Assembly: GCA_013152955.1 (NCBI GenBank)
Contig: JAADFJ010000102.1
Coordinates: 40,729-89,774 of the forward strand
From: Campylobacterota bacterium
Lineage (GTDB): Bacteria > Campylobacterota_A > Desulfurellia > JAADFJ01
Reading direction: 5' to 3'
DNA: 49,046 nucleotides
How positions within the stretch are numbered: the first letter of the stretch is position 1; each line of letters begins with the position of its first letter. Under the pieces are notes generated by a model, which made no database searches, was not told the DNA's origin, and saw only the letters and a program-made list of their open reading frames with translations. Made by a program: the position numbers and the translations under genes. Of this stretch, positions 1 to 20,271 are shown piece by piece.

Positions 1-453
1 ATTGTGGCAAAACTTTTTATGATGATTATGCCGGATTTCGCATTCTTTGGAAAAAAGGATGCACAGCAGCTGATTGTTATACAAAAAATGACTGATGATC
101 TTAATATGCCGATTTCAATAATACCTGTTGAAACCGTGAGAGAACAGAATGGTCTGGCATATTCAAGCAGAAACAGCTACCTGAATGAAAAGCAGAGGCG
201 GGAAGCCGTGGTTCTGTATAATGCATTAATGAGAGCCAGAACGATTGTTCAGGCCGGGCAAAAAAAGTGGAACATTATAAAAAAGGAAATGGAAGAAGAG
301 ATTGGAAAATCCAAAGAGGCAAAAATAGATTATATTTCCTGCAACAGAACGGATAGTCTGTCAGAACTCAGCGAGATAAGTAAAAACAACAGCCTTATCT
401 CACTTGCCGTTTTTTTTGACAAGACAAGATTAATTGATAATATTTGGTTATAG
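1..453 (+). CDS. panC: Pantoate--beta-alanine ligase, C-terminal part (truncated by window start)
   Basis: Frame open from base 1; VAKLFMMIMPDFAFFGKKDAQQL and GLAYSSRNSYL motifs; followed by panD. Confidence 0.93.
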   Translation: MVAKLFMMIMPDFAFFGKKDAQQLIVIQKMTDDLNMPISIIPVETVREQNGLAYSSRNSYLNEKQRREAVVLYNALMRARTIVQAGQKKWNIIKKEMEEEIGKSKEAKIDYISCNRTDSLSELSEISKNNSLISLAVFFDKTRLIDNIWL

Positions 454-461
454 GAGGATAA

Positions 462-818
462 ATGCTGCTAAATATGATGAAAGGTAAAATTCACAGAGCA
501 ATCGTTACCCAGGCTGATCTTAATTATGAAGGAAGCATAACAATTGATTCAAAATTAGCAAAAGCCGCCGGAATTGTACCGTACGAACAGGTAAGCATCT
601 ATGATATAAATAATGGCAGCAGGTACACTACATACTGTCTTTATGGAAAACCGGACAGCGGAACAATCTGTTTGAATGGAGCGGCAGCCAGAATGTCATC
701 GGTTGGAGATCTCATAATAATAGTGTCCTATGCAATGATTGAAGAAGAGCGACTAAATGAATTTAAACCGAAAATTGTGCTGGTAGACGCCAATAACAAT
801 ATAAAAAAGATTTTGTGA
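462..818 (+). CDS. panD: Aspartate 1-decarboxylase
   Basis: 118 aa, MMKGKIHRAIVTQADLNYEGSITID with the Gly-Ser self-cleavage site; adjacent to panC. Confidence 0.96.
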   Translation: MLLNMMKGKIHRAIVTQADLNYEGSITIDSKLAKAAGIVPYEQVSIYDINNGSRYTTYCLYGKPDSGTICLNGAAARMSSVGDLIIIVSYAMIEEERLNEFKPKIVLVDANNNIKKIL

Positions 819-2029
819 GGCTTTTATACCGGGAATTTTTTGATAAATCATTTATAAGTTCTATAGAAGCCGAGTGCGTTAGACTAAAAAAACAAATCAC
901 GAAAATTTTCGGCAATTGGGGATTTTCATCAGTAAAGAAAGACACCGATTTGATAAACTATTTCGAAAGTCGAAAAGGAAAATGGAACCGGTTTGTGCAG
1001 ATTGGAATGGGAGGTTCGGTGCTTGGCGCTCAGGCACTCTGCGAATTTCTGGATACACCAAAAGGCAAATCGATTGAATTTGTAGACGATATAGACAGTT
1101 CATACATATCATCTCTTACCTATAGTCCGAATACATGCTACCATATCGTCAGCAAATCAGGTTCAACCGTCGAAACGATAGCAAATTTTATCTATCTGAT
1201 TAATCATTTTAAAGGAGACCCCGGTAAGCAGATTATAGTCAGTACCGGCAGCAGCGGATTTCTAAAAGATTATGCAGATAATCATAATATCAAGCGATTT
1301 TTAATACCGGATAATGTGGGGGGAAGATATTCCGTATTTACGCCGGTAGGAATGGCAGCTGCAAGTTTTCTCGAATACGACATAGACAAAATTTTTGTCG
1401 GAATGAACCGGGCATTGGAAAATCTTATTTCAGATACACATGCATCTCCATATCTGTTAGCCGCTATAGCGTCCGAATTTCTCAGAAAAAACAGGCGCAA
1501 TCTGGTACTTTTCTGCTATTCTGAAAAACTGCTTAAAACAGTTTACTGGTTTAGACAACTTTGGGCTGAAAGCCTTGGAAAACTTATTGACAAAGACGGA
1601 AATCCGATAAGAACCGGGCAAACTCCGATCGTTGCGCAGGGCACATCCGACCAGCACAGCCAAATTCAGCTTTACAGAGAAGGTCCGCTGGATAAACTGT
1701 TCTGCTTCTTTCGCGGTCCCGCAAATCGCGATGAAAGATTAAATGCAGGCCCGGATTTCGATCGGTTCAACTATCTATCTGGGTATTCTCTAAACGAAAT
1801 CAAATACGCAGAGTACAGAGCCACCAAACATAGTCTTGCGGAGCATTCACCGGTTATTTCTATTGAAACTGACTCATATTCAGAACAGTCGCTTGGCCTG
1901 CTTATAATGAATTTGATGCTGGCAACGGCAATTACCGGAGAACTGCTTAATATTGATGCATTCAATCAGCCCGGCGTAGAATTGGGCAAACGTCTTACAA
2001 AAACTATTTTGACCAAAAATGAGATTTGA
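815..2029 (+). CDS. pgi: Glucose-6-phosphate isomerase (GTG start overlapping panD stop)
   Basis: IGMGGSVLGAQAL, SKSGSTVET, GGRYSVFTPVG and QGTSDQHSQIQLYREGP motifs. Confidence 0.92.
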   Translation: MRLLYREFFDKSFISSIEAECVRLKKQITKIFGNWGFSSVKKDTDLINYFESRKGKWNRFVQIGMGGSVLGAQALCEFLDTPKGKSIEFVDDIDSSYISSLTYSPNTCYHIVSKSGSTVETIANFIYLINHFKGDPGKQIIVSTGSSGFLKDYADNHNIKRFLIPDNVGGRYSVFTPVGMAAASFLEYDIDKIFVGMNRALENLISDTHASPYLLAAIASEFLRKNRRNLVLFCYSEKLLKTVYWFRQLWAESLGKLIDKDGNPIRTGQTPIVAQGTSDQHSQIQLYREGPLDKLFCFFRGPANRDERLNAGPDFDRFNYLSGYSLNEIKYAEYRATKHSLAEHSPVISIETDSYSEQSLGLLIMNLMLATAITGELLNIDAFNQPGVELGKRLTKTILTKNEI

Positions 2030-2417
2030 TTATAAAATTTATTACGAAGATACAGATGCCGCAGGTGTAGTGTATTTTGCCAACTATCTTAAATTTCTTG
2101 AGCGAGCCAAAACGGATCTTATGTCTGCATACGGTATTAATATTGCGGAATGGCACAAGAAATTCATTTTCCTCGCGGTAAGAAAAGTTAATATTCGCTA
2201 TAGAAAACCGGTAGAGTTTGGCGATATATTAACGGTTGATATAGAAATAAAATCGATAAAAAAGGCAAGTATTCAATATACCTATTGTTTAACTGCAAAA
2301 GAGATAGTCGTCTGTGAAGCTGAAATTGATTCGGTCTGTATGAACGGAGAAAAGAAACCCGTTATCATTCCAAAGGAGTGGCGTACCGCTCTTGAGAATA
2401 TCTCAATTGATCCCTGA
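2019..2417 (+). CDS. ybgC: YbgC/4-hydroxybenzoyl-CoA thioesterase family hotdog-fold acyl-CoA thioesterase
   Basis: YYEDTDAAGVVYFANYLKFLERA signature. Confidence 0.9.
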   Translation: MRFDYKIYYEDTDAAGVVYFANYLKFLERAKTDLMSAYGINIAEWHKKFIFLAVRKVNIRYRKPVEFGDILTVDIEIKSIKKASIQYTYCLTAKEIVVCEAEIDSVCMNGEKKPVIIPKEWRTALENISIDP

Positions 2418-2585
2418 ACGCAGCAATTATAAGTTAATATTATCATCGGACGGACAACAAAAGAAAAACTTTAGATGAAAGGCTGGTTGCAATCTCACAC
2501 CTTCCCCGGCTTTCGGCTGATACGTTTATTATTTAACAATCTTGTAATATGAAAAAAACCGTTAAAAGGTTATCATGAAAAACAT

Positions 2586-2613
2586 TTGACACCATGACTA
2601 ATTAAACTATTAT
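2586..2613 (+). promoter_or_regulatory. Candidate sigma70-type promoter for the oxidoreductase operon (TTGACA - 16 nt - TATTAT)
   Basis: TTGACA at 2586-2591 and TATTAT at 2608-2613, upstream of AAGGAGG and ATG 2643. Confidence 0.5.
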
Positions 2614-2642
2614 TAGATAAATAAAATATTAAGGAGGAAAAT

Positions 2643-3224
2643 ATGGCTGCAAAGCTTAATATACGCTGGCACGGAAGAGCCGGCCAGGGCGCAGTTACTG
2701 CCGCCAAAACTATTGCCGAGCTGGTTGCGCAGGATCCGGATAAATATGTGCAGGGATTTGCCATATACGGAGCCGAAAAACGCGGGGCTCCGGTTGCAGC
2801 GTTTACGCGAATCGAAAATTCCCCGATAAGACGCCATTCTTTGAAGATGATACCTGATGTTGTCGTTCTTTTAGATCCAAGTCTGGTTGGAATCGTAGAT
2901 ATTTCAGAAGGAGCCAAAAAAGGGGCAAGCTTCATCATCAATTCGCCAAAAACAAAAAAAGAAATCATCAAAGAACTCGGAATCGATTCGGAACTTTTCA
3001 AAACGTATGTGGTAGACGCGAATAAAATAAGCAGAGAAGAACTCGGAAAGGCCATACCGAATGCACCAATGATGGGTGCAGTTGCAAAAATTACAGGAAT
3101 TTTCTCTAAAGAAGAAATTATGAAAACCACAAAAGAAATATTTGAAGAACAGGGAAAATTTTCGAATAAAATAATAGAAGGCAATCTGCGTTCCATCGGG
3201 AGAGCGTTCGAGGAGGTTTCTTGA
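2643..3224 (+). CDS. porC: Pyruvate/2-oxoacid:ferredoxin oxidoreductase, gamma subunit
   Basis: IRWHGRAGQGAVTAAKTIAE and YGAEKRGAPV motifs; AAGGAGG SD; operon context. Confidence 0.93.
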   Translation: MAAKLNIRWHGRAGQGAVTAAKTIAELVAQDPDKYVQGFAIYGAEKRGAPVAAFTRIENSPIRRHSLKMIPDVVVLLDPSLVGIVDISEGAKKGASFIINSPKTKKEIIKELGIDSELFKTYVVDANKISREELGKAIPNAPMMGAVAKITGIFSKEEIMKTTKEIFEEQGKFSNKIIEGNLRSIGRAFEEVS

Positions 3225-3613
3225 TGAATAATAAAAAGAATTTTATAACTCCTGGATGCGACAAGGATGGAAATCTGCTCGGTTGGCGGTCTGTTGAAAT
3301 CGGAGCTATGGTGATAGACGCAGGCAACAGCCGTATGTATGAAACAGGATCATGGCGCAGCGAACAGCCGGTTTGGAACGCCGATACATGCATAGACTGT
3401 ATGATGTGCTGGCTGGGATGTCCCGACACGGCTATAATAGCCAAAGATGGCCATATGGCCGGTATTGATTATTTTAAGTGCAAAGGCTGCGAAATATGTG
3501 TAGAACAGTGCCCCACAAAACCAAATTCACTAGTCATGATTTTGGAAGAAAAGGCTAAAGACCTCTCGCTGGAAGAGAAAACTGAGCTTGCCTTCAGTAA
3601 GGAGCAAAAATGA
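3221..3613 (+). CDS. porD: Pyruvate/2-oxoacid:ferredoxin oxidoreductase, delta (2x[4Fe-4S] ferredoxin) subunit
   Basis: CIDCMMCWLGCP and CKGCEICVEQCP cluster motifs; overlaps the gamma gene. Confidence 0.92.
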   Translation: MMNNKKNFITPGCDKDGNLLGWRSVEIGAMVIDAGNSRMYETGSWRSEQPVWNADTCIDCMMCWLGCPDTAIIAKDGHMAGIDYFKCKGCEICVEQCPTKPNSLVMILEEKAKDLSLEEKTELAFSKEQK

Positions 3614-4785
3614 GTAAAAGAGTTGCATTATCAGGCAATGAAGCCGCAGCGCATGCAATTAGACAGATAAATCCGGATGTAATTGCGGCATTTCCAATTA
3701 CCCCATCAACACCGATTCCAATGGCTGTTTCACAATTTATTGCTGATGGAAAAATGACCACAGAGTTTGTTACTGTGGAATCCGAACACTCTGCTATTAG
3801 CGCATGTGTCGGCGCTTCTGCTGCAGGCGGAAGAGTGATGACAGCGACAAGTGCCAACGGCTTAGCTTTGATGTTTGAAATTTTATACATTGCATCAGGA
3901 ATGAGACGCCCCATTGTGGCACCGGTTGTAGCAAGAGCACTCTCGGGGCCCCTAAATATTCATGGAGATTTTTCCGATGTATATGGTGTGCGTGAATCGG
4001 GCTGGGTAGAGCTGTTTTGCCAAGACTCACAGGAATTTTATGATACAATTATACAAAGCGTTAAACTAGCGGAAAATGAATCGGTCCTCACTCCCGTTAT
4101 GCCGATTGCAGACGGTTTTGATATAAGTCACACGGTTGAAAACTGGTATATGGAAGATGACGAGGCGGTTCAGAAATTTATCGGGGAATATCATTCCAAA
4201 TATTCACTTCTGGACACGGAACATCCTGTAACTTTTGGAGCATGGGCACCGCCTGATTGGTATTATGAGCACAGAAGAAGTCAGCTCGAGGGACTTTTAA
4301 ACGCCTGCGATGCATTTAAAGCTGTAGATAAAGAGTTCGGTGAAAAGTTTGGACGATCATACGGAGTTATTGAAAAATATCACAGTGATGATGCAGATAT
4401 TGTTGTCATAGGAATGGGAGCGGTAAGCGGCACAATAAAGGATGCCGTAGATGAGATGAGAGCGAATGGAATCTCTGCCGGATTTTTACGTGTCAAACTT
4501 TTTAGGCCGTTTCCATATAAAGATATTATCGAAGCACTTAAAGGCGCAAAAGCAATAGGTGTATTTGACAGATGCATAACTGCCGGTGCTCAAACCGCTG
4601 CATTATGTACAGATATAAGATCTGCTATGTATGGAAAATCCAACATACCTATCGTAAATTATACTTACGGTCTTGGAGGGCGCGACACCACAGTCAGTCA
4701 TGTCAAAACTGTGATAGAACAACTCAAAGAAGCGGCTGAGGGTAAAAAGATAGACCTGATCAACTATATCAATCTTCGCGCTTAG
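3610..4785 (+). CDS. porA: Pyruvate/2-oxoacid:ferredoxin oxidoreductase, alpha subunit
   Basis: SGNEAAAHAIRQINPDVIAAFPITPSTPI, ESEHSAISACVGASAAGGRVMTATSANGL. Confidence 0.95.
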   Translation: MSKRVALSGNEAAAHAIRQINPDVIAAFPITPSTPIPMAVSQFIADGKMTTEFVTVESEHSAISACVGASAAGGRVMTATSANGLALMFEILYIASGMRRPIVAPVVARALSGPLNIHGDFSDVYGVRESGWVELFCQDSQEFYDTIIQSVKLAENESVLTPVMPIADGFDISHTVENWYMEDDEAVQKFIGEYHSKYSLLDTEHPVTFGAWAPPDWYYEHRRSQLEGLLNACDAFKAVDKEFGEKFGRSYGVIEKYHSDDADIVVIGMGAVSGTIKDAVDEMRANGISAGFLRVKLFRPFPYKDIIEALKGAKAIGVFDRCITAGAQTAALCTDIRSAMYGKSNIPIVNYTYGLGGRDTTVSHVKTVIEQLKEAAEGKKIDLINYINLRA

Positions 4786-4798
4786 CACAGGAGGATAA

Positions 4799-5749
4799 AT
4801 GGCAAAAAAACTTTCATTTTTAAATAAATTGGCTTTAAATAAAGAATTGCTGGAAGGAGGGCACAGATTGTGTCCCGGGTGCGGCCACTCGATCATCGTC
4901 AGAATGGTTTTGAATACGGCAATGCAGGAAGGCTATCAGCCGGTTATGGCAAATTCAACCGGATGTCTGGAAGTCTGCACAGGATTATATCCGTATTCAA
5001 GCTGGAATATTCCATGGATACACAATGCATTTGAGAATGTCGCAGCTACCCTGTCAGGTGCCGAATCTATGTATAAATCGTTATCAAGAAGAGGAAAGCT
5101 GAACAACGACAAAATTGTTTTTATAGCATTCGGAAGTGACGGCGGAACATACGATATAGGACTTCAAGCACTGTCGGGAGCAGCAGAAAGAGGTCATCGG
5201 TTTTTGTATGTCTGCGACGACAATGAAGCCTATCAAAATACCGGAAATCAGCGATCAAGCGCAACACCGTACGGCACAAGGACAACAACTTCTGCTGTAG
5301 GTACGGCCGACCCGATAGGGAAAAAACAGAAACGCAAAGATATTATGGAAATAATGGCAGCCCACGAAATTTATACAGCTCAGGCATCTCCGTCATATTG
5401 GATGGACTTGATCAAAAAGGTCAAGAAAGGACTGAAGCAGAATGGACCGGCATATCTGAATGTTATCCAACCATGCACCACCGGGTGGGGATACGATCCC
5501 AAAGATACAATAAATCTTGCCAAATTAGCAGTAGATACCTGTATATGGCCTCTTTATGAGATTGAAAATCGTAGAAGCAAAGTGAACTACAAACCTAAAA
5601 ACAAACTGCCGGTAGAAGAATACCTCAAAAAACAGAAACGTTATGCCCACCTGTTTACACCCAAGGGCAAAGAGGCTCTTGAGAAAATTCAGCAGCTGAC
5701 CGATGAACACTGGAATTTTCTACTTGAAAGAGAGCAGGCCGGATTTTAA
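4799..5749 (+). CDS. porB: Pyruvate/2-oxoacid:ferredoxin oxidoreductase, beta (TPP-binding) subunit
   Basis: GGHRLCPGCGHSIIVR, NSTGCLEVCTGLYPYSSW, GSDGGTYDIGLQALSGA, YVCDDNEAYQNTGNQRSSATPYGT. Confidence 0.95.
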   Translation: MAKKLSFLNKLALNKELLEGGHRLCPGCGHSIIVRMVLNTAMQEGYQPVMANSTGCLEVCTGLYPYSSWNIPWIHNAFENVAATLSGAESMYKSLSRRGKLNNDKIVFIAFGSDGGTYDIGLQALSGAAERGHRFLYVCDDNEAYQNTGNQRSSATPYGTRTTTSAVGTADPIGKKQKRKDIMEIMAAHEIYTAQASPSYWMDLIKKVKKGLKQNGPAYLNVIQPCTTGWGYDPKDTINLAKLAVDTCIWPLYEIENRRSKVNYKPKNKLPVEEYLKKQKRYAHLFTPKGKEALEKIQQLTDEHWNFLLEREQAGF

Positions 5750-5758
5750 GGAGCACTT

Positions 5759-5917
5759 TTGCTAATCCATAAGATGCTACTTGAACCCCGAATTGATCTC
5801 TTCCATGCTGCAAATTTCGACAGCAACTCTGTTATTACCTGCAATTTGCACCTTAACGACGGTTTTAAACTTTTAAACAGAGATATTTTAAAATCTTTGA
5901 GGAGTGAATCAAAATGA
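5759..5917 (+). CDS. Unannotated small ORF, 52 aa, TTG start (or ATG at 5774), unknown function
   Basis: Manual translation: (M)LIHKMLLEPRIDLFHAANFDSNSVITCNLHLNDGFKLLNRDILKSLRSESK*; AAGGAG SD at the porB stop; ATGA overlap with the next gene at 5914; absent from the ORF track (<60 aa). Confidence 0.5.
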   Translation: MLIHKMLLEPRIDLFHAANFDSNSVITCNLHLNDGFKLLNRDILKSLRSESK

Positions 5918-6102
5918 AACTAAAAAATTATATGCGCTTACTTCCGGGTATCTTTATAGTTATATCCGTACTACTCGGTCTTTTTTATAATAAATGGTGG
6001 TTTGCCTTCACTCTGTTTGTAGGATTAAATATGATGCAGTCGGCGTTTACAGACTGGTGTTTGCTTGAAAAAATCCTCAAAAAATTAGGGGTAGAGGAGT
6101 AA
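5914..6102 (+). CDS. DUF2892/YgaP-type transmembrane domain small membrane protein
   Basis: LLPGIFIVISVLLGLFYNKWWFAFTLFVGLNMMQSAFTDWCLLEKILKKLG. Confidence 0.8.
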   Translation: MKLKNYMRLLPGIFIVISVLLGLFYNKWWFAFTLFVGLNMMQSAFTDWCLLEKILKKLGVEE

Positions 6103-6106
6103 TATC

Positions 6107-6718
6107 ATTTCTGGTGGAGTTGCCGGTATAGTTTTAGCTGGCGGCAAATCCGCCAGAATGAAAGAAAATAAACTCTTGATTAAAATTGACGGAAAAAGAA
6201 TAATAGATCATACGATATCGGTGATCTCTCGTCTGTTTCCGATCTATGTTGTCGGAAAGGAAAATTTAAATCATTATATTGACAATAGGTCATTCATAGT
6301 CGATTTATATTCCGTATCGGCACCGCTTGTCGGTCTTTATTCTGCGATTAGAACTGTTGATGCGGAAACGGTCTTTCTAATCTCGGGGGATATGCCGTTT
6401 GCTAAAGCCGACCTCATTTTGTTTTTAAAATCTCAGCTTTCAAAAGATATAGACGCTGTTGTTCCATTTTATGAAAGGCCGCAGACAACATTTGCATTTT
6501 ACAAAAAAAGTTGTTTGGAAACTATATTAAAAGCAATAGAGAATGCCCAGCTCTCGCTAAAAGGGATATTGATGACTCTAAAAGTCAAATATATTTATGA
6601 AGAAAAAATGAGACCGTTTGATCAGAATCTTATCTCATTTTTTAACATCAATACAAGAGAACAGCTTGAGATTGGAAAAAGATTATTCTCAACAACCCAA
6701 CAGTCAGCTTTTGTATAA
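6107..6718 (+). CDS. mobA: Molybdenum cofactor guanylyltransferase; probable non-canonical start (ATT 6107 or ATC 6104)
   Basis: Frame read upstream of the track ATG (6158) gives SGGVAGIVLAGGKSARMKENK, the nucleotidyltransferase motif; next upstream stop in frame is TAG 6092-6094; GGAG at 6096-6099. Confidence 0.8.
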   Translation: MSGGVAGIVLAGGKSARMKENKLLIKIDGKRIIDHTISVISRLFPIYVVGKENLNHYIDNRSFIVDLYSVSAPLVGLYSAIRTVDAETVFLISGDMPFAKADLILFLKSQLSKDIDAVVPFYERPQTTFAFYKKSCLETILKAIENAQLSLKGILMTLKVKYIYEEKMRPFDQNLISFFNINTREQLEIGKRLFSTTQQSAFV

Positions 6719-6734
6719 AAACTAATCCGCAGCT

Positions 6735-7226
6735 TTACTTAACATATTCTATGATCAATTCGGCAATTTCAGCTATCTGATCCTGCCTGTAAAGAGGGCA
6801 GTTAAATTTATGATCATCGTTGCCGATCAAAGCTATTATAGGATTCATTTTGTTCAGATCACTTAATTGGTCTTCCGCGCTTTCAACCCATATTTTTGAA
6901 ATATTCGAATCGGATTTGAAACCCTCAGCCAATATAATATCAACATCATTGAAAAGTGCCGCTATTTTTTTTAAATTTTGAGAACCTCTTATCTTGATGG
7001 CTGAAAAATAAGGTGATATAAGTGCAACTTCTTTTGCGCCCTTCTGATAGAAAAGAGCACTGTCTTTTTTGCCTTCGTCTATTCGAGCTTTTCCTTTCGG
7101 GTCATGCTTTATAACACCTACTGAAAGATTCCTGCTTATAAGCTCATCAATTACTTTCAAAAGTAGTGTTGTTTTTCCTGAATTATGATATCCCACAAAA
7201 GAAATTATAGAAACCTGTTTTTTCAT
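6735..7226 (-). CDS. mobB: Molybdopterin-guanine dinucleotide biosynthesis protein B
   Basis: ISFVGYHNSGKTTLLLKVIDEL P-loop, VGVIKHD, ILAEGFKSD; convergent with mobA. Confidence 0.92.
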   Translation of the reverse strand: MKKQVSIISFVGYHNSGKTTLLLKVIDELISRNLSVGVIKHDPKGKARIDEGKKDSALFYQKGAKEVALISPYFSAIKIRGSQNLKKIAALFNDVDIILAEGFKSDSNISKIWVESAEDQLSDLNKMNPIIALIGNDDHKFNCPLYRQDQIAEIAELIIEYVK

Positions 7227-7686
7227 ACCGATCTCCAGACAGCTTCCGACATTTCCATAGTATACTTTCGTGCGATAGTTTGTCTATATGCAAAATATCT
7301 CTTGCAAACATTTTTTCTCCGCTATTGAAAACAAAATTCCACAGGCATAATAAAACCGCTGCGCAGTAAAAAGCCGCGAATTTGACAACTGTACAGCGAT
7401 TTTATAAGGGTGGAAAATTCTATTATACAAAAGACAGCAAACACCATATCCGACAAGAATAATCTATTTTTACCGAATGCACAAAAAACGGATTTCTCTT
7501 GATAAAACAGATTGCTATACTAACATTAACATAAAATGACAGAGAAAGTAGACTTAAAATTATTTTTATCGAAAGCTTTGTTGATGTGAAGGAAAGAGAG
7601 TCTGGTAAAAATCTTACGCTCGACATTAATAAAAAATTTCAGCACAAAAAAAATATAAAACAAAATCAAAATAATGTACAATTTAT

Positions 7687-8908: not shown

Positions 8909-10030
8909 ATGAATAAAATACAGTCTCATTCAACCATCAGACGTCGTAACTTTCTGAAATATCTGGCAGCTGTCGGAATAACCGCAGCCGGGGGATATAT
9001 GTTTTTCGAGTATGCCCCATGGCTGAATTATGATGAACAAGCCAAACAAATCCGAAGACCTTTTGAAAAGAATTTGACTAAGTCAGCACAAATGCAGGAA
9101 ATTGTCCGCTACGCAACGCTTGCAGCGAATGGACATAATACCCAACCATGGAAGTTCGTTATCAAGCAAAATGCTATAGAAATCTATCCCGATTACGCCC
9201 GCCGTTTGTCGGTCGTTGATCCCGGTGATCGCGAACTATGGATCAGCCTGGGCTGTGCACTGGAAAATCTACTGATTGCTGCCCGCTCTGCCGGATACAC
9301 ACCCGAAGTAACCTATCCTTATGCAGTCGATTTTATCCGCATTCGTCTAACAGCAGATACCATGCAAAGGAGTCCGCTGTTAGACGCTATTCCGCTGCGC
9401 CAGAACACTCGCTCTGAATATACCAGCCAAATCATCAAAAGAAATGACTTTGATCAAATACATGCTCCACCGCTGGAGCCGGGTGTAGTGGTACATTTTG
9501 TCACGAATTCGGCCGGTTTAAAAACGGTACTGGAATATGTTATTCAAGGCAACCTGAGCCAGTATGCCGATAAGGCGTTTGTTGATGAGTTGATTTACTG
9601 GCTGCGCTTTAATAAGAAAGAAGCCCTGGCTTCGCTCGATGGCCTGTTCACGCGCTGTTCCGGAAATCCGGAAGTGCCGCGTTGGCTTGGACGGATGTTT
9701 GTAGCCGGTATGAAACCGCAACAGTGGGCTGATGCAGATACCAAGAAATTACGCAGTTCTCACGGTGCAGTTGTACTTGCGTCAGAATCAGATGATAAGA
9801 CCACTTGGGTACGTACCGGACAGGTTTATGAGCGTATAGCGCTCAAGATGACCTCGCTGAATATTAAATCGGCTTTCATTAATCAGCCCGTTGAAGTAAC
9901 AAAACTACGCTCGCAATTCCAGAGTGCGATTGGATTGGGTGCGTATTTACCGCAATTATTGATGCGCTTCGGCTATGCCAATACGATGCCGCGTTCTCTG
10001 CGCCGCCCTATCAAACAAGTGCTTATATAA
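8909..10030 (+). CDS. Tat-signal, Acg-type nitroreductase family protein
   Basis: Twin-arginine signal TIRRRNFLKYLAAVGITAAGG; ATLAANGHNTQPWKFVI nitroreductase-like FMN-binding motif; WISLGCALENLLIAARSAGY. Confidence 0.82.
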   Translation: MNKIQSHSTIRRRNFLKYLAAVGITAAGGYMFFEYAPWLNYDEQAKQIRRPFEKNLTKSAQMQEIVRYATLAANGHNTQPWKFVIKQNAIEIYPDYARRLSVVDPGDRELWISLGCALENLLIAARSAGYTPEVTYPYAVDFIRIRLTADTMQRSPLLDAIPLRQNTRSEYTSQIIKRNDFDQIHAPPLEPGVVVHFVTNSAGLKTVLEYVIQGNLSQYADKAFVDELIYWLRFNKKEALASLDGLFTRCSGNPEVPRWLGRMFVAGMKPQQWADADTKKLRSSHGAVVLASESDDKTTWVRTGQVYERIALKMTSLNIKSAFINQPVEVTKLRSQFQSAIGLGAYLPQLLMRFGYANTMPRSLRRPIKQVLI

Positions 10031-10108: not shown

Positions 10109-10207
10109 TGGTGCCGAGGGCGGGAATCGAACCCGCATGAGGTTACCCTCGAGGGATTTTAAGTGGGATTTTAAGTCCCTTGCGTCTACCTGTTCCGCCA
10201 CCTCGGC
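10109..10207 (-). tRNA. tRNA-Leu (anticodon UAA at 10171-10173), CCA encoded, with a 12-nt tandem duplication in the anticodon-arm region
   Basis: Acceptor GCCGAGG/CCTCGGC, discriminator A, T-arm GCGGGTTCGATTCCCGC, variable-arm GAGG-GTAA-CCTC hairpin, loop CTTAAAA; 99 nt. Confidence 0.9.
10153..10176. repeat. Perfect 12-bp tandem duplication GGGATTTTAAGT x2 inside the tRNA-Leu gene
   Basis: Direct reading of 10153-10164 and 10165-10176. Confidence 0.99.
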
Positions 10208-10297
10208 AATAAACTTATATCCTATTCCAATTTCTTTTTATGTCAACAAATCGTATTGAAAATTCCCTTTATCTATCGTCTTTTTTTGCCGTTCTAT

Positions 10298-11152
10298 CTA
10301 TTTATTTATCAAAAACAGCGGAGCAAAAAGTGCGGTACCGGTTAACTCTGCAACAACGTCACATTTTGCAAGAAAAAGAAAATATACCCTCCATCTGCTC
10401 TCAGATAACGACTCGAAGTTGCCTTGCCCTTTTGAAATAATCAGGTTGCTGTCATCGAATAAATTTTTCAATCTCTCATCTTTTCTTGCGAGAGCACCCG
10501 GAGCAGCATAGCTTGCCTCCACTATCTCCGCATATTGATCAATTCCGACATATTCTGCATCATCAATAGTTACATCATTTATTATCGGACCGCCCCTCAC
10601 GACTGCCGTAAATTCAATATCAAAACTCTCTTTTATGGTTTCTATAAGAATCTTATCGAAAACGATTTCACCTGCATTATCAAGCACAAAAGCAGCTTTA
10701 TCGGCAGATAGTAAATCATTAAAAAATCGATCAATCGCAGGTCGGGGAAGCTGTATATCTGCTATTAGTTTAATAGCTTTTTCCACATCATCGTTAATTT
10801 CCTGCGCTCCGAAATCAATTGTATTGGCGGCTATGGAATATTTGACGGCTGTCATTACCGGATCATTCGAGCGTTTTATTGCACCGATTATCTGTTTCTC
10901 CATCGACAGCACTTTATCGTTTTGAGATTTCTTTATTGAACGATAAGGATCGGTTTCGCCTACAGAATCTTTGATAATTCTATATATTTCCTCAGATAGA
11001 TATGGAGGAGGCAGTTCAAGGTCGGCAATCTCAAGAAATTTGTTGATTCTGCCGGCAGCCTCTTTCTTGATTTTGTCACCAGCTCCAAACCGATCTGCCA
11101 CCCGATCCATCTGTCTGATAAAACAGGACAGACATTCAGGTTTAGTTTTCAT
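10298..11152 (-). CDS. DUF89 (damage-control phosphatase / ARMT1-like) family protein
   Basis: MKTKPECLSCFIRQ (CxxC), TIDFGAQE, FVLDNAGEIVFDKILIE, VVRGGPIINDVT, ISKGQGNFESL. Confidence 0.88.
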   Translation of the reverse strand: MKTKPECLSCFIRQMDRVADRFGAGDKIKKEAAGRINKFLEIADLELPPPYLSEEIYRIIKDSVGETDPYRSIKKSQNDKVLSMEKQIIGAIKRSNDPVMTAVKYSIAANTIDFGAQEINDDVEKAIKLIADIQLPRPAIDRFFNDLLSADKAAFVLDNAGEIVFDKILIETIKESFDIEFTAVVRGGPIINDVTIDDAEYVGIDQYAEIVEASYAAPGALARKDERLKNLFDDSNLIISKGQGNFESLSESRWRVYFLFLAKCDVVAELTGTALFAPLFLINK

Positions 11153-12399
11153 GAAACCCGAATACCTGAAACCTTTATTCCTTTCGGACCTATATAGTTT
11201 GTCCTTTTAGTAATATTCGAAGAAAATGCGGCATTCTTGAAACATTCAGGAATTTTTCCGGTGATTGTTCCTCCTCTGATTGGATAGCTTTTTCCGTTAT
11301 CAACAAAATATCCTGTCCGTATTTCACTTGAAAATTCTCCGGTGATAGGATTGGGTTCAAATGTTGAAAAGCGCAGAAGTTCTAAAAATCTGCCGCTGTA
11401 TAAAGAGCTCATACTTTCTCTACCCTGCTTTATTCGTATACATCTGATATCTCCGATCGGTTGTATTGAAAGAAAATCAGAATATCGTTTTGATGCCGCA
11501 ATCTGCTTAAATATACCGTTTTTTATGATAACATGATTTTTTAAAGCCAAACCGTTTTCATCAAACGGGCTTGTTCCGGCAAATCCCGGCATAAGTGCAA
11601 CCGATTCCATAGTTAAATTATCGGCACTCTCGGCAACAGGCTTTTCGAGCTGAAAATTTGACCATTTTTCAAACAGACTTTTACCGCTTGCATTGGCAAT
11701 AAAATAGCTAAAAAGCGTGTCAAGCGCTTCACCCATAAAAATTACATCGAATTTTCCTTCAGGCGGGGAAACCGCATCTCCCGATTCAATGGCAAAAACC
11801 GCATAATCAGGCAATACCAGATTAAGATTCATCTCCTTCAGGAACGGCTTTTTTACAACAGCCTCAATATCACTGCTTCTTCCTTTATCATTAACAAGAT
11901 TTATATAAGCAGAAAAATTTGAATATTGCCTATACGCATGAAGATCAAAACTGTTCTCTATTTCTATAGATGTTACGGACGAAAAAAGTTCACTTGAAGC
12001 ATATGTGACATAGCGTTTAAACCTTGCAATTCCCTGTTCTATATCGTTCTCAAGTTTATCAAGCGAGCCGGTTTTTAAAGCATTTTCGTCCAGCAATTCA
12101 ACTGTTTCGTAGCTGGAAGATTTAGGTAAACTCCAATGATCGCTGACCGATCGGCCAAGGTTGTCCAAAGCATTTTTTACAACTGCTTTCGGATCATCTC
12201 CTTCTGTGATATAAAAATGCGTCTGATGAGTTTTTTCGCCTTTATGGGCAAGCATAAGCCCCTCAAAGAGTGTATAGCTTACATATCTCTCCTGCTCTAT
12301 ATGTCCGGCACTTATATATCTTTCTATTCTTGATACCGTTTTTTTTGTCAGTTGCCATTCATCTGCACAGCTCATGTTATCGATTATTCGATTTTTCAT
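11149..12399 (-). CDS. TldD/PmbA family protein, TldE-like subunit
   Basis: PmbA-like C-terminal half (SGEFSSEIRTGYFVDNGKSYPIRGGTITG); no HExxxH; coupled to tldD. Confidence 0.83.
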   Translation of the reverse strand: MKNRIIDNMSCADEWQLTKKTVSRIERYISAGHIEQERYVSYTLFEGLMLAHKGEKTHQTHFYITEGDDPKAVVKNALDNLGRSVSDHWSLPKSSSYETVELLDENALKTGSLDKLENDIEQGIARFKRYVTYASSELFSSVTSIEIENSFDLHAYRQYSNFSAYINLVNDKGRSSDIEAVVKKPFLKEMNLNLVLPDYAVFAIESGDAVSPPEGKFDVIFMGEALDTLFSYFIANASGKSLFEKWSNFQLEKPVAESADNLTMESVALMPGFAGTSPFDENGLALKNHVIIKNGIFKQIAASKRYSDFLSIQPIGDIRCIRIKQGRESMSSLYSGRFLELLRFSTFEPNPITGEFSSEIRTGYFVDNGKSYPIRGGTITGKIPECFKNAAFSSNITKRTNYIGPKGIKVSGIRVS

Positions 12400-13885: not shown

Positions 13886-14604
13886 TTTGCCATTAAAGGA
13901 ATTTTCTCAAAATAAAAATTTTTGCTGCAGATATTCTCTGAATTTTTTCCCTGTTCCTGCGAATCCGCAGAGCTAACCGATAGATTATCGCTATATTTTA
14001 ATCTGTTTGCTATGATATAGGCTGGTTTTTTATAATATTCCGCTGCAAGCAGTAAAGGAAAGCTCCCTATCTTATTGATAAAGCAGGAATCGCTAATTCC
14101 ATCAGCACCTAAAATAACCGCATCAACATCGTTTACAAGACCGGCTAATGCCGCATCCGGAACAAGGCTTACCCTGATATCTGAAGCTGCCAATCTTTTT
14201 GCCTGCAAAACTCCCTCCTCTGCAGGTTCTCCGATCGACAAAACCACCTTTAATTTTTTCTGTTGAGCAATTCTTTTCAGCGTATTATAAATATCCTCGC
14301 TTGAAGATATAGTCGCAAAACTGTCATATTTCTGCAGGATAGAAACTGCTTTCGCTATAAGCATATTCTGTGAATCTAAAAACTGTTTTTTAATTGCCGA
14401 CAGATTAAATTTCCCTTTCCCGTATTCCGATTTTACAATATCGCATATTGATCTGACGAGAATCATATCAGGAAACGCTTCTTTCATCAATTCAATTTTT
14501 TCTTCAATATTCTCAGGATTCAATTCCAAAAATCTTAAAAAAGAGCTGACTATAGCTACCGAACCGCTTCGGTTATCAGATAAAAGCTCGCTAAACTTTT
14601 GCAT
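13870..14604 (-). CDS. eIF-2B alpha/beta/delta-like family protein (ribose-1,5-bisphosphate/methylthioribose-1-phosphate isomerase-like fold)
   Basis: VVLSIGEPAEEGVLQAKRLA, VSLVPDAALAGLVNDVDAVILGADGISDSCFINKIGSFPLLLAAEYYKKPAYIIA. Confidence 0.82.
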   Translation of the reverse strand: MQKFSELLSDNRSGSVAIVSSFLRFLELNPENIEEKIELMKEAFPDMILVRSICDIVKSEYGKGKFNLSAIKKQFLDSQNMLIAKAVSILQKYDSFATISSSEDIYNTLKRIAQQKKLKVVLSIGEPAEEGVLQAKRLAASDIRVSLVPDAALAGLVNDVDAVILGADGISDSCFINKIGSFPLLLAAEYYKKPAYIIANRLKYSDNLSVSSADSQEQGKNSENICSKNFYFEKIPLMAKWIHQ

Positions 14605-15988
14605 TCAAAAATTTAATGAACCGCTCCATGCGCTTCAGCGATTCCTCTTTGCCCAAAATCAGCAGCATCTCATAAATTCCAGGGCTCACCGTTTTTCCTG
14701 TAAGCGCTATTCTTATGGGCTGAGCAATCTTCAGCATCTTCAGTTGAAATTCATCCATAACGTTTTGAGCAATCTTTTTCAGCTCAGACTCATTCCATTG
14801 AACATCTTTCATCAACAGCATTATTTTATTGAGTAAATCAATACTGCTGCAGTATTTTTTTACACCTTTTTCTTCGTAATCGGAAGGGGTTTCAAAATAA
14901 AACCGCATCTGATCGGCCATTTCTTTCAAGGTTTTGGCTCTTTGCTGAACGGTTTTTACCATCTCTACAAATTTTTCATCTATTTTTACAGTCGTTCCCA
15001 AAAGAGCAGAGATAAACGGCAATACTTCCTCTGCAAGTATCGAAGGTACCCTATTTTTAATATAAACAGCATTCAGCCAAAGAAGTTTCGACGGATTAAA
15101 AACCGATGCCGACTTTCCGAGACGTTTTATATCAAAATAACGGATCATCTCCTCCATACTGAAAATTTCCTGATCATTATAAGAAAAACCCAATCTAACC
15201 AGATAGTTCAATAAGGCATCAGGCAAATATCCTTCTTCTTTATATACGTTAACGGAAATAGCTCCGTGACGTTTAGAAAATCGTTTTTTATCGGCACCCA
15301 GAATCATGGGAACATGGGCATATCTTGGAATATCAAAACCAAGAGCTCTGCACAACAAGATCTGTTTGGAAGTATTTGAAAGATGGTCATCTCCGCGAAT
15401 TATATCTGTAACTCCCATAAGAGCATCATCTACGACACAGGCAAAATTATACATTGGTATTCCGTTTGATCTTACAATAATAAAATCGTCTATCTCTGAC
15501 AAGTTTATCAAGATTTTTCCATGAATCAGATCATCAAACTCAATATTTTCGTCTGTTTTCGGCAGCTTAAACCGTATGGTAAAATTCTCTGCCGCCTCAT
15601 TATTCGTACCTCGACAAAATCCGTCATAATGGGGTTTTATACCGTTTGCCGTCTGAGATTCTTTTAATTTTTTTAATCGTTCTCTGCTACAGCAGCATTT
15701 ATAAGCCTTACCTTCCTCAATAAGTCTGTCTATATATTTTGAATAAATTTCACCTCTTTGAGACTGAAAATACGGACCATCATCAAACTTCAAATCAACC
15801 CATCTGAATGCTTTGATTATCAGATCGCTAAAGCGTTCTTCCGATCTCTCACTGTCCGTATCCTCTATTCTCAAGATAAACTTTCCGTTGTTGTGTCTGG
15901 CATACAGATAGTTAAAAAGTGCGGTTCTGAGGCCGCCTATATGAAGAAACCCGGTAGGACTCGGAGCAAAACGAGTAATTATACTCAT
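14591..15988 (-). CDS. gltX: Glutamate--tRNA ligase
   Basis: RFAPSPTGFLHIGGLRTALFNYL HIGH motif; DKKRFSKRHGA KMSKS-type motif. Confidence 0.96.
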   Translation of the reverse strand: MSIITRFAPSPTGFLHIGGLRTALFNYLYARHNNGKFILRIEDTDSERSEERFSDLIIKAFRWVDLKFDDGPYFQSQRGEIYSKYIDRLIEEGKAYKCCCSRERLKKLKESQTANGIKPHYDGFCRGTNNEAAENFTIRFKLPKTDENIEFDDLIHGKILINLSEIDDFIIVRSNGIPMYNFACVVDDALMGVTDIIRGDDHLSNTSKQILLCRALGFDIPRYAHVPMILGADKKRFSKRHGAISVNVYKEEGYLPDALLNYLVRLGFSYNDQEIFSMEEMIRYFDIKRLGKSASVFNPSKLLWLNAVYIKNRVPSILAEEVLPFISALLGTTVKIDEKFVEMVKTVQQRAKTLKEMADQMRFYFETPSDYEEKGVKKYCSSIDLLNKIMLLMKDVQWNESELKKIAQNVMDEFQLKMLKIAQPIRIALTGKTVSPGIYEMLLILGKEESLKRMERFIKFLNAKV

Positions 15989-16458
15989 TTTGCCTTCTTT
16001 GGAATTACAATAAGCGTAATCGGATGCTTGTCCGAAAAAAGCTCACTATTTCTTGTGTCAATATGATAAACCAACTTTTCTCCTTCTCCTTTATTTGTCC
16101 CGTCGCTAAATTTGACAGGGCCTCCGGTCAATATTAGTGTTTGATCTTTTTTGCTGTAAACTGCCGACTCCGAGGAAGCCGTAAACTGCTTTTTTTTATC
16201 GATATTTTGTATATGTACCGAACCGGTAGCCACCGCTCTCACAACTGCGCCGCTTTTGTTTCTGTATATGACGAGCTTGTTTGATTTAACGGTAAGCCCA
16301 CCTCTTTTAAAAATAACATTCTTAATGAATGTGGCCTTATTGCTGTCTTGATCAAAACGAGCACTTACCGAACGAATCTCAATTGGAATATTCTTCTGCG
16401 GCAATCCGGCTGAATATGCAGTTGAAATAAGCATCAAAAGTATCAGCAAAACTCTCAT
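15985..16458 (-). CDS. lptA: LptA/OstA-like periplasmic LPS-transport protein
   Basis: Signal peptide; FIKNVIFKRGGLTVKSNKLVIY, TASSESAVYSKKDQTLILTGGPVKFSDG. Confidence 0.78.
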   Translation of the reverse strand: MRVLLILLMLISTAYSAGLPQKNIPIEIRSVSARFDQDSNKATFIKNVIFKRGGLTVKSNKLVIYRNKSGAVVRAVATGSVHIQNIDKKKQFTASSESAVYSKKDQTLILTGGPVKFSDGTNKGEGEKLVYHIDTRNSELFSDKHPITLIVIPKKAK

Positions 16459-17027
16459 AGCTTTTTAATAATCTTTTTTATTTTTTTAAGAGCTATCGCC
16501 CTATGACTTATAAACCGTTTCTTGCAGGCAAGTTCCGAATATGTTTTTTGGTAGCCGAGCGGTATAAAAAGAGGATCATAGCCAAATCCGCCCACACCCG
16601 ACAAATTATACGCAATACGTCCGGAAACCTTTCCTATAGATTGATAAATAGTATCAGACAACAGAATTATAACCGATATAAATTTCGCTCTGCGGTCGCT
16701 TTTATTCCCAAGTTTTGATAGTAATTTAATATTATTAGACTCATATGTAGCCTTAGGACCATCAAAACGAGCAGAGTATACTCCGGGCAAGCCGTTTAAG
16801 ATCTTTACTTCAAGACCGGAATCATCCGCAAGTGTCGGAATTCGGTACTTATCATATAAATAGCGCGCTTTCAAAAGAGCATTTTCTCTGTATGTTTTAC
16901 CTGTTTCTCTGGGAGAATCCTCGCCAAGCTCGTCCGCAGAAATAATTTTAACAGACATGTCACAAAAGAATTGCTTAATCTCTCTTAACTTTCCCTGATT
17001 ATGGGTTGCAACGATAAGTTTATCCAA
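16455..17027 (-). CDS. rdgB: XTP/dITP diphosphatase (RdgB/HAM1)
   Basis: [58 protein letters not shown]. Confidence 0.95.
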
Positions 17028-17664
17028 ATCTTAGTTTCCAGTCTTCTAAAAATTTGGCAAGACCAATATCGGTTAAAGGATGATTGAACAGCTTTTCAAT
17101 CACTTCAGGCGGAACTGTTGCAACATCCGCACCATTGAGAGCAGCCTCTATTACATGCGAAGGATGCCTTATGCTTGCAACTATAATCTCGGTTGCAAAT
17201 TGATAATTGTCATAGATTGCCCTTATCTGTTCAATAAGCTCCATTCCATGATGGCCTATATCATCAAGTCTTCCTATAAAAGGACTAACATAAGCAGCTC
17301 CTACCTTTGCGGCAAGCAGCGCCTGAGCCGGAGAAAAAACAAGTGTAACATTGGTTTTTATGCTTTTCTTTGAAAGAGCGTTAACAGCCTTTATACCCTC
17401 CTTTGTCATAGGAATTTTTACAACTATATTCCTGTTTATAGCAGCAAGCTCTTCTGCTTGGCTTATCATTCCAATCGTATCCGTGGCAATAACCTCAGCA
17501 CTTATAGGTCCGTCAACAAATGAAGAAATCTCTTTTATTATATCATCAAAGCTGCCGTCTTCTTTTGAAACAAGCGATGGGTTTGTTGTTACTCCGTCAA
17601 TGATGCCCAATTCATAGTATGATCTTATTAACTCGACATTTGCCGTATCAATAAAAAATTTCAT
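17020..17664 (-). CDS. fsa: Transaldolase / fructose-6-phosphate aldolase-type
   Basis: [58 protein letters not shown]. Confidence 0.94.
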
Positions 17665-17694
17665 CTTCTCTCCTTTTTGAAATCTACAAGCTAA

Positions 17695-17916
17695 TTATTG
17701 TTCGCCGGATTCCACATATTTTTTTTCGCATTCATCGGAGCAAAAATAGTTTGTTTTGCCCCAATTAATCTCTTTTTTTGCATCTTCCTGCGGCAGATAC
17801 GTTCCGCACTGAGAACATGAGACCAATTTCTTGTCCTTCATCGTACCGTCTTTTAGAGACTTTTTCAGATAAGCCCACACAATAAATAACAGCACAAAAA
17901 GTATTAAGTATTTCAT
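17695..17916 (-). CDS. PP0621-type small membrane-anchored Cys-rich protein
   Basis: N-terminal TM helix then CSQCGTYLPQEDA...YFCSDECEKKYV. Confidence 0.65.
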   Translation of the reverse strand: MKYLILFVLLFIVWAYLKKSLKDGTMKDKKLVSCSQCGTYLPQEDAKKEINWGKTNYFCSDECEKKYVESGEQ

Positions 17917-17956
17917 ATTTTTATGATAGAATCAGGATAAGTTTTGTCAATAAATT

Positions 17957-18469
17957 TTAATCATTGAATATTGTAAGCATCGATTTTAGATGCTTAAAAT
18001 CGTTCGGACCAATTGGCTCGTACCGAATCTGCTGCATCCTAAAAATATTAACATCCGCTTCGGAAATGCTCGTTTTTCTGATTTTTCTTATCCTCAATCG
18101 TTTGAGTATGGTTTCTTCTTTGTGAACTCTGCATTCAATCAAATGCATAGGAACTGTTCCTGCATTCTCATAACAAAATTTTCTGTATCTGTATTTAGAA
18201 AATGTAGCATCCAAAATTACCGATTGATCTTTTTTCAACAGTTCTGCAGCCGTTTTTATCATTTCTTTGTAAACACTGTTTATCGCATCCTTGCTGTAGT
18301 TGCCAGTCAATCCTAAATTTTTTCTAATTCTATCAGTTGACAAAATCAGATATCCATTAATCTTAGCTATATTTCTCGCTGTATAGCTTTTCCCCGTTCC
18401 GGAGAATCCCATCATCATTATAATAAGCGGTTCATCAAAATTGATCAGCATATAACGCAGATAATCCAA
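17957..18469 (-). CDS. P-loop ATP-binding kinase-like protein (COG0645-type)
   Basis: GFSGTGKSYTARNIA Walker A; LSTDRIRKNL; VILDATFSKYRYR. Confidence 0.78.
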   Translation of the reverse strand: MDYLRYMLINFDEPLIIMMMGFSGTGKSYTARNIAKINGYLILSTDRIRKNLGLTGNYSKDAINSVYKEMIKTAAELLKKDQSVILDATFSKYRYRKFCYENAGTVPMHLIECRVHKEETILKRLRIRKIRKTSISEADVNIFRMQQIRYEPIGPNDFKHLKSMLTIFND

Positions 18470-19403
18470 AATATCGTTTAGCCCGTTTTAGATTTTCGTC
18501 AGCTTTCGTCTCATCATACATAAAACCTTCCACCTTGCCTCTTACATATGCCCGATAACATTTATAGAAGCTGCACAAAGCTTCTATTTTTTTTTCGTTA
18601 AATTTGCTGCAATATTTCTCAAACATAATTTCAGATATCTTATTATAGTCGTTGTATTCCAGATCCATCAATAAAAACGCAAAGTCGAGCAGCCTGTCCT
18701 GGTATCTAAAACGGTCATTAAATTCTATGCAGTCAAACAGATAAGCCTGATCTTTTTCAAAGTAAATATGTTCAATTCTTATGTCTCCATGGCCATCAAT
18801 AATTGCTCCGGCAGCTATTCTTTCTTTGAATAAATCTTCTTTTAAGCAAAAATTTTCTGCAGCAGTTTTGATTTTTGAGAACTGAGCATCAGTTATTGTG
18901 ATATCAATCTGGTTTTCGGTTTGCTCAAAATTTTCTTTCCAATTATTTATCATAACCGCAGCATCTCCAAATTCCTCAATCCCTGCAGGTACACTTTGCA
19001 GCGCGAATCGATAGAATTTTTCAATAAATGCCTCTATCATATTGCTTGACAGGTTGTCATTCTCAAGATAATAGCTTAGCATCTGATTTTTTTTAAGCCG
19101 CCTCATAACAACCAGCCAATCCACAACCTCATCGTCTGCAAAAACCGGTTCAGCTTTTATATAAATATTAGAAAGTCTTCTATTGAGTTCAATCTCTTTT
19201 TTACAGAAATTCTCCCTCTGCTTTACGCTTCTATAATCAAGAAATCCAAAAAAAAGAGGTTTTTTCTGTTTATATGCAAAATGTTCAGTTAAATAGATAT
19301 TTGAAATATGCGTTCGCTCTATTCTTTGGATAATCTCGCCGCTGCACGAAATAAAATCTTTTGCTATTTTCTCCAGATCAAATTGCTTCTGCTGCATTAC
19401 CAA
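18435..19403 (-). CDS. Aminoglycoside phosphotransferase-like protein (COG2187-type)
   Basis: AYKQKKPLFFGFLDYRSVKQRENFC, IIDGHGDIRIEHIYF, FDCIEFNDRFRYQD; overlaps the downstream kinase by 35 nt. Confidence 0.8.
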   Translation of the reverse strand: MVMQQKQFDLEKIAKDFISCSGEIIQRIERTHISNIYLTEHFAYKQKKPLFFGFLDYRSVKQRENFCKKEIELNRRLSNIYIKAEPVFADDEVVDWLVVMRRLKKNQMLSYYLENDNLSSNMIEAFIEKFYRFALQSVPAGIEEFGDAAVMINNWKENFEQTENQIDITITDAQFSKIKTAAENFCLKEDLFKERIAAGAIIDGHGDIRIEHIYFEKDQAYLFDCIEFNDRFRYQDRLLDFAFLLMDLEYNDYNKISEIMFEKYCSKFNEKKIEALCSFYKCYRAYVRGKVEGFMYDETKADENLKRAKRYFGLSALYADQF

Positions 19404-20271
19404 TCACCTTAATTTTTTCATGCTCAGGTACGCTTGCCCATTCCCAGCTCTTTTCAGTAGAAAAAAGCTTTTTCAGCAAACGGTTATTTAAGGTATGGCC
19501 GGATTTGTAGGCAACATAATGCCCTATAACATCGACTCCTGCAAGTGACACATCTCCAACTGCATCAAGCATCTTATGGCGTACAAACTCATCAGGATAG
19601 CGCAGTCCATCTTCATTCATTATACGATAATCATCAAGGACGATTGCATTATCCAACGATCCGCCAAGTGCCAGATTATTTGCCTTGAGATATTCCATAT
19701 CCCTGAGGAAACCAAACGTTCTTGCTCTGCTGATCTCCTTTATATATTTTTGACGACTGACTCTGAGTGAAAGTTTTTGAAAACCGATTTTCGGATGACC
19801 GAAACTGATCGCATATGTAATTCTTTTATGACTGCATGGAACAAAAGCAGCCCATCTTCCATCTTCCTTAACCTCAATTTTGCTTTTTATCCTGATGGTT
19901 TTTCTCGGAACTCCCTGCGAACGTATACCCGCTTCCTGAATCATATAGATAAATGAAGCGGCGCTGCCATCCATTATGGGAATCTCAGGTCCGTCAACAG
20001 AAACAAAAAGGTTCGATATCTCAAGACCTGCTACTGCAGAAAGAAGATGCTCCACAGTGGCAATTTTTAAAACTCCGTCGCCCAATGTTGTAGCCATAGA
20101 CGTATCTACTACATTATCCCAAGTTGCCTTAATCTGTTTCCCGTTACAAAGGAATACAATTCCGGTACCGACAGAAGCCGGAATCAGTTCTATGGTAGCT
20201 ATTTTACCTGAGTGAAGACTGACACCTTTAACGGAAGTTGTTTTCTTTATCGTTTTTTGAAGCATCAACAC
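19378..20271 (-). CDS. lpxC: UDP-3-O-acyl-N-acetylglucosamine deacetylase
   Basis: QKTIKKTTSVKGVSLHSGK, TVEHLLSAVAGLEI, RHKMLDAVGDVSLAG, GHTLNNRLL. Confidence 0.96.
   Translation of the reverse strand: MLMLQKTIKKTTSVKGVSLHSGKIATIELIPASVGTGIVFLCNGKQIKATWDNVVDTSMATTLGDGVLKIATVEHLLSAVAGLEISNLFVSVDGPEIPIMDGSAASFIYMIQEAGIRSQGVPRKTIRIKSKIEVKEDGRWAAFVPCSHKRITYAISFGHPKIGFQKLSLRVSRQKYIKEISRARTFGFLRDMEYLKANNLALGGSLDNAIVLDDYRIMNEDGLRYPDEFVRHKMLDAVGDVSLAGVDVIGHYVAYKSGHTLNNRLLKKLFSTEKSWEWASVPEHEKIKVIGNAAEAI

Follow-up and report, generated by a model that had tools for sequence, protein, structure and literature searches.

In the assembled window (the whole 49,046-nt stretch of DNA analysed here), the tRNA-Leu(UAA) gene carries a perfect tandem duplication of half of its anticodon arm. 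We propose, with a probability of roughly 0.6, that the second ACTTAAAATCCC copy is absent from the genome of the organism, which would possess an ordinary tRNA-Leu(UAA), and that it entered the draft when contig ends were joined without merging their overlap. Contig ends sharing about 10-16 bases would in this case have been placed side by side with the overlap left unmerged, which would yield a perfect tandem duplication. We infer this joining mechanism, and the tRNA locus as its product, from an excess of perfect, unmutated duplications in the draft, some of which break genes and three of which lie in or beside tRNA genes, and from the short N gaps that the draft contains.

On the minus strand the gene has the order GCCGAGGTGGCGGAACAGGTAGACGCAAGGG-ACTTAAAATCCC-ACTTAAAATCCC-TCGAGGGTAACCTCATGCGGGTTCGATTCCCGCCCTCGGCACCA (Table 1). 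The 12-bp copies, which together occupy 10153-10176, show no mismatch, and the run of matches is exactly 12, so that the duplication is not bordered by microhomology. The window holds no other perfect tandem repeat whose unit reaches 12, and ten Markov shuffles of the window yielded none. The perfect 12-nt duplication described in the original prediction is thus confirmed by ARAGORN, Rfam and the sequence, as is its claim that a single copy restores a canonical 87-nt gene with intact arms and an encoded CCA: when one ACTTAAAATCCC copy is removed all arms are paired, and the corresponding genes of relatives in the class have 88 nt. The cloverleaf, UAA anticodon, long variable arm and A73 identify the gene as a tRNA-Leu(UAA). 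It resembles ordinary bacterial class II genes of this kind in its acceptor, D, variable and T arms, A73, CCA and anticodon, and shares identical runs of up to 27 nt with class relatives, but differs from the ordinary form in 12 extra nt that repeat positions 31-42. A 5-bp anticodon stem with a 7-nt loop is present if there is a single ACTTAAAATCCC copy, whereas the gene as assembled offers either 4 bp plus a mismatch or a wide arm. In the loci examined, some of which overlap, 349 tRNAs were called, and no other gene among them exceeds 94 nt.

Table 1. Positions in the window of the tRNA-Leu(UAA) gene, its elements and the adjoining promoter-like site
Feature	Position	Strand	Basis
tRNA-Leu(UAA) gene, 99 nt as assembled, CCA encoded	10109..10207	minus	ARAGORN; Rfam RF00005 (calls tRNA)
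First ACTTAAAATCCC copy, tRNA positions 31-42; anticodon UAA at 10171-10173	10165..10176	minus	
Second ACTTAAAATCCC copy, identical to first; probably an assembly duplicate	10153..10164	minus	sequence and genome-wide pattern
Variable arm stem-loop GAGG-GUAA-CCUC, intact	10139..10150	minus	
T arm GCGGG-UUCGAUU-CCCGC, intact	10120..10136	minus	
Sigma-70-like promoter TTGACA-16-TAGGAT, adjoining tRNA upstream	10219..10246	minus	consensus match only; chance frequency for region

Duplications of this type are not confined to the tRNA, as comparable perfect cases of 10-16 bp occur across the draft. Our sample covered 846 kb of the source genome (G000; about 56% of it), 281 kb of the sister genome G001 and 389 kb of the sister G002. 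Tandem duplications of at least 11 bp in two perfect copies number about 15 in the G000 portion, against about one expected. One of 13 bp (L288:5344-5369; G000 C89:25344) frameshifts an otherwise intact gene for a UbiD-family decarboxylase (about 195 + 284 codons), and across it the Pfam match to UbiD breaks off at profile position 91, to continue at 94. Another 13-bp case (L330:10368-10394; G000 C10), situated 373 bp from a contig end, does the same to an otherwise intact pyruvate phosphate dikinase (PPDK), and a 16-bp duplication shifts the C-terminus of a gene which we read as HyfE-like and which Pfam does not recognize. In the sister genomes eight cases were checked, and all of them leave genes unbroken. 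Two further duplications are associated with tRNAs: an 11-bp perfect one ends on the first base of tRNA-Phe (L008:1573-1594; G000 C19:8769), where the sister G002 has a single copy, and another 11-bp perfect one lies 10 nt past tRNA-Ala(GGC) (L031:1278-1299; G000 C105:1278), where the G002 sequence is unduplicated and diverged. Of the 19 other duplications of at least 10 bp, 2 are within 10 bp of a tRNA; with the tRNA footprint roughly estimated, chance would give this with a probability of about 0.004. Blocks of 23-27 nt in tRNAs are exactly common to most relatives, and such conserved blocks are natural break points in metagenome assembly. The draft also includes N runs of 2-57 bases, which indicate that its contigs were scaffolded.

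In its perfect copies, short unit, lack of a decayed tail, damage to intact genes and the presence of N gaps in the draft, the pattern matches what unmerged contig overlaps would leave. Against an artefact, several of the perfect G000 duplications are harmless and natural-looking, for instance those in efflux-protein-like and release-factor-like genes, which can still be read through with both copies present, and the sisters too have perfect ones. The original prediction had named an assembly error among its options, and the draft-wide perfect 10-16 bp duplications, some gene-breaking and without decayed copies, support that option rather than its emphasis on a biologically strange tRNA. In practice, this result counsels caution: an odd feature seen at a single locus of this draft, the UbiD and PPDK frameshifts included, needs a check against reads before it is interpreted.

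The balance between perfect and mutated copies bears on another explanation, namely that short tandem duplications really did arise in this strain in a recent burst, for example by fill-in of staggered breaks followed by blunt rejoining, with the tRNA as one of the targets. Most G000 duplications show 0-1 nt of microhomology, as this explanation would have it, and the duplications of the sisters are also above chance, so that the lineage does produce them. However, decayed copies are not in excess in G000: duplications with one mismatch occur there at 18.9 per Mb, near the 14.7 per Mb expected by chance, as against 49.8 and 38.6 per Mb in the two sisters, where chance gives 10.7 and 18.5 (a two- to fivefold excess). 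Perfect duplications number 16.6 per Mb in G000 and 10.7 and 7.7 per Mb in the sisters, in which one-mismatch copies are about fivefold commoner than perfect ones. The difference between G000 and the sisters in perfect versus one-mismatch copies has a Fisher P of 0.015 on raw counts, with small numbers and with the statistics on duplications picked after the first extra cases had been seen. A natural, long-running process would leave mutated older copies, so their lack of excess in G000, again on small numbers, favors an artefact. As genes are moreover broken only in G000 and not in the sister cases checked, we regard a burst as very improbable.

If the duplication were real, its consequences for the tRNA can be gauged from predicted folds, which take no account of tRNA modifications or proteins. 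In the predicted lowest-energy fold AGGGA pairs with the UCCCU that follows the second copy, and an extra UUAA/UUAA helix forms inside. The wide stem has predicted pair probabilities of 0.79-0.89, the normal anticodon stem ones of 0.10-0.11; with the acceptor and T stems required, the wide arm makes up 29% of the predicted ensemble and the normal 7-nt loop 3.5%. The main fold would hence be predicted to bury the anticodon in an enlarged arm, with about 4-11% of molecules keeping a normal 7-nt loop. The original prediction had envisaged two foldings, one with a 7-nt loop on a mismatched stem and the other with the full stem closing an enlarged loop; both are possible, and the predicted minimum is a variant of the latter with the added UUAA/UUAA helix.

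It is conceivable that such a tRNA, from a real and recent duplication, still works. The first copy would then form the normal 7-nt loop, closed by a 4-bp stem that leaves A27/A43 unpaired, the second would insert 12 nt ahead of the variable arm, and LeuRS would go on charging the tRNA because this enzyme is independent of the anticodon and variable arm. The E. coli LeuRS depends on A73 together with the core of the tRNA, and accepts changes in the variable arm (PMC9976931); by analogy, charging of the 99-nt form might survive. All the other arms are intact, a promoter-like site (a consensus match at chance frequency) lies upstream, UUA is in use and no other UAA gene was found. Nevertheless, the small predicted share of the normal loop, the want of any similar tRNA in the genomes searched and the genome-wide pattern of duplications make a working tRNA quite unlikely. 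That UUA is read by a single 99-nt tRNA-Leu(UAA) with a duplicated anticodon half-arm, through the minority fold or through exact removal of one repeat copy by some further route, appears more doubtful still. An active tRNA with a real duplication would show that a bacterial tRNA can accommodate 12 inserted nt next to its anticodon stem without losing the ability to read a codon that the cell requires.

The source draft comprises 1.51 Mb in 106 contigs and is 88% complete. The genome-wide check for a second tRNA-Leu(UAA) suggested earlier uncovered neither a copy nor a fragment in this assembly, and the completeness of 88% leaves room for a pseudogene with a backup elsewhere. UUA accounts for 15% of the leucine codons in the window and, with this as the sole UAA gene found, damage to it would be costly, which also speaks for an assembly artefact. 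A real duplication might all the same have damaged the gene. UUA would then be read by another tRNA-Leu(UAA) that the assembly missed, or the population would be mixed, with the duplicated form as one of its alleles. The predicted main fold, which destroys the normal anticodon loop, would fit such damage, as would the incompleteness of the assembly. No tRNA-Leu(UAA) was found in the sister assemblies G001 and G002, so this gene is missed by assembly in other members of the genus. On the other hand, no arm has decayed apart from the duplication and no backup is seen in the assembly, and we consider a damaged gene unlikely. Across the three genomes of the genus, no UAA gene other than that of the window was seen; the G001 contig matching its right flank ends at about 14.4 kb of the window, and the missing gene in G001 may therefore be an assembly gap. 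Related families of the class have a tRNA-Gly(GCC)-Cys(GCA)-Leu(UAA) cluster. In G000 (L010:1383-1572, C88) the tRNA-Gly(GCC)-Cys(GCA) pair stands without a following tRNA-Leu(UAA), the next gene being read as rho, and the genus seems to have lost the gene from this cluster or moved it out.

Several other origins were rejected. The contig is not misbinned, as its SecA is 85% identical to that of the same-genus G001 and 56-58% identical to those of other families of the class, and the flanks at window positions 1-7239 and 14439-19999 match G001 at 69-80% DNA identity. A between-species chimera at the tRNA is discounted by the acceptor stem, which pairs 7/7 and shows that the two tRNA halves fit each other. 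The doubled motif, allowing up to two mismatches, is absent in 24 other genomes of the phylum, and a related pattern was present in 85 GTDB stretches and 11 viral contigs, in none of them inside a tRNA-Leu; this search covered stem sequences with TC after CTTAAAA, in genomes other than those near the window's own. These absences argue against a trait common to relatives, and a phage or plasmid origin is rejected, the only similarity being that of ordinary tRNAs. In the part of the literature covered, no tRNA came up in which half of the anticodon arm is duplicated.

The tRNA-Leu(UAA) gene is the host of the cyanobacterial-type group I intron, whose insertion affects the anticodon arm. The insert described here shares this host gene and affected arm with that intron, but has only 12 nt and is a direct repeat. 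The group I intron model RF00028, which matched 4 of 14 control genomes, had no match in G000, G001 or G002, and such an intron is accordingly rejected, in line with the earlier remark that 12 nt is too short for one. Archaeal-type bulge-helix-bulge tRNA introns are, to our knowledge, not expected in bacteria. As to the earlier option of removal by a processing step, excision of the repeat with ligation by RtcB is rejected, since no RtcB ligase was found in the three incomplete genomes (9 of 14 controls were positive).

Close to the tRNA, an ARMT1-like (DUF89) and a TldE-like gene adjoin it at window 10298-12399, with no match in the two sister assemblies. A nitroreductase-like gene at 8909-10030 has 47% GC as against 39% around it and lacks a match at the DNA level in both sister genomes, and was perhaps acquired from elsewhere. 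Further away, at 5746-5869, lies a dispersed intergenic repeat of about 110-120 bp, which recurs at 72-77% identity at six other sites within the G000 sample and at many in G002.
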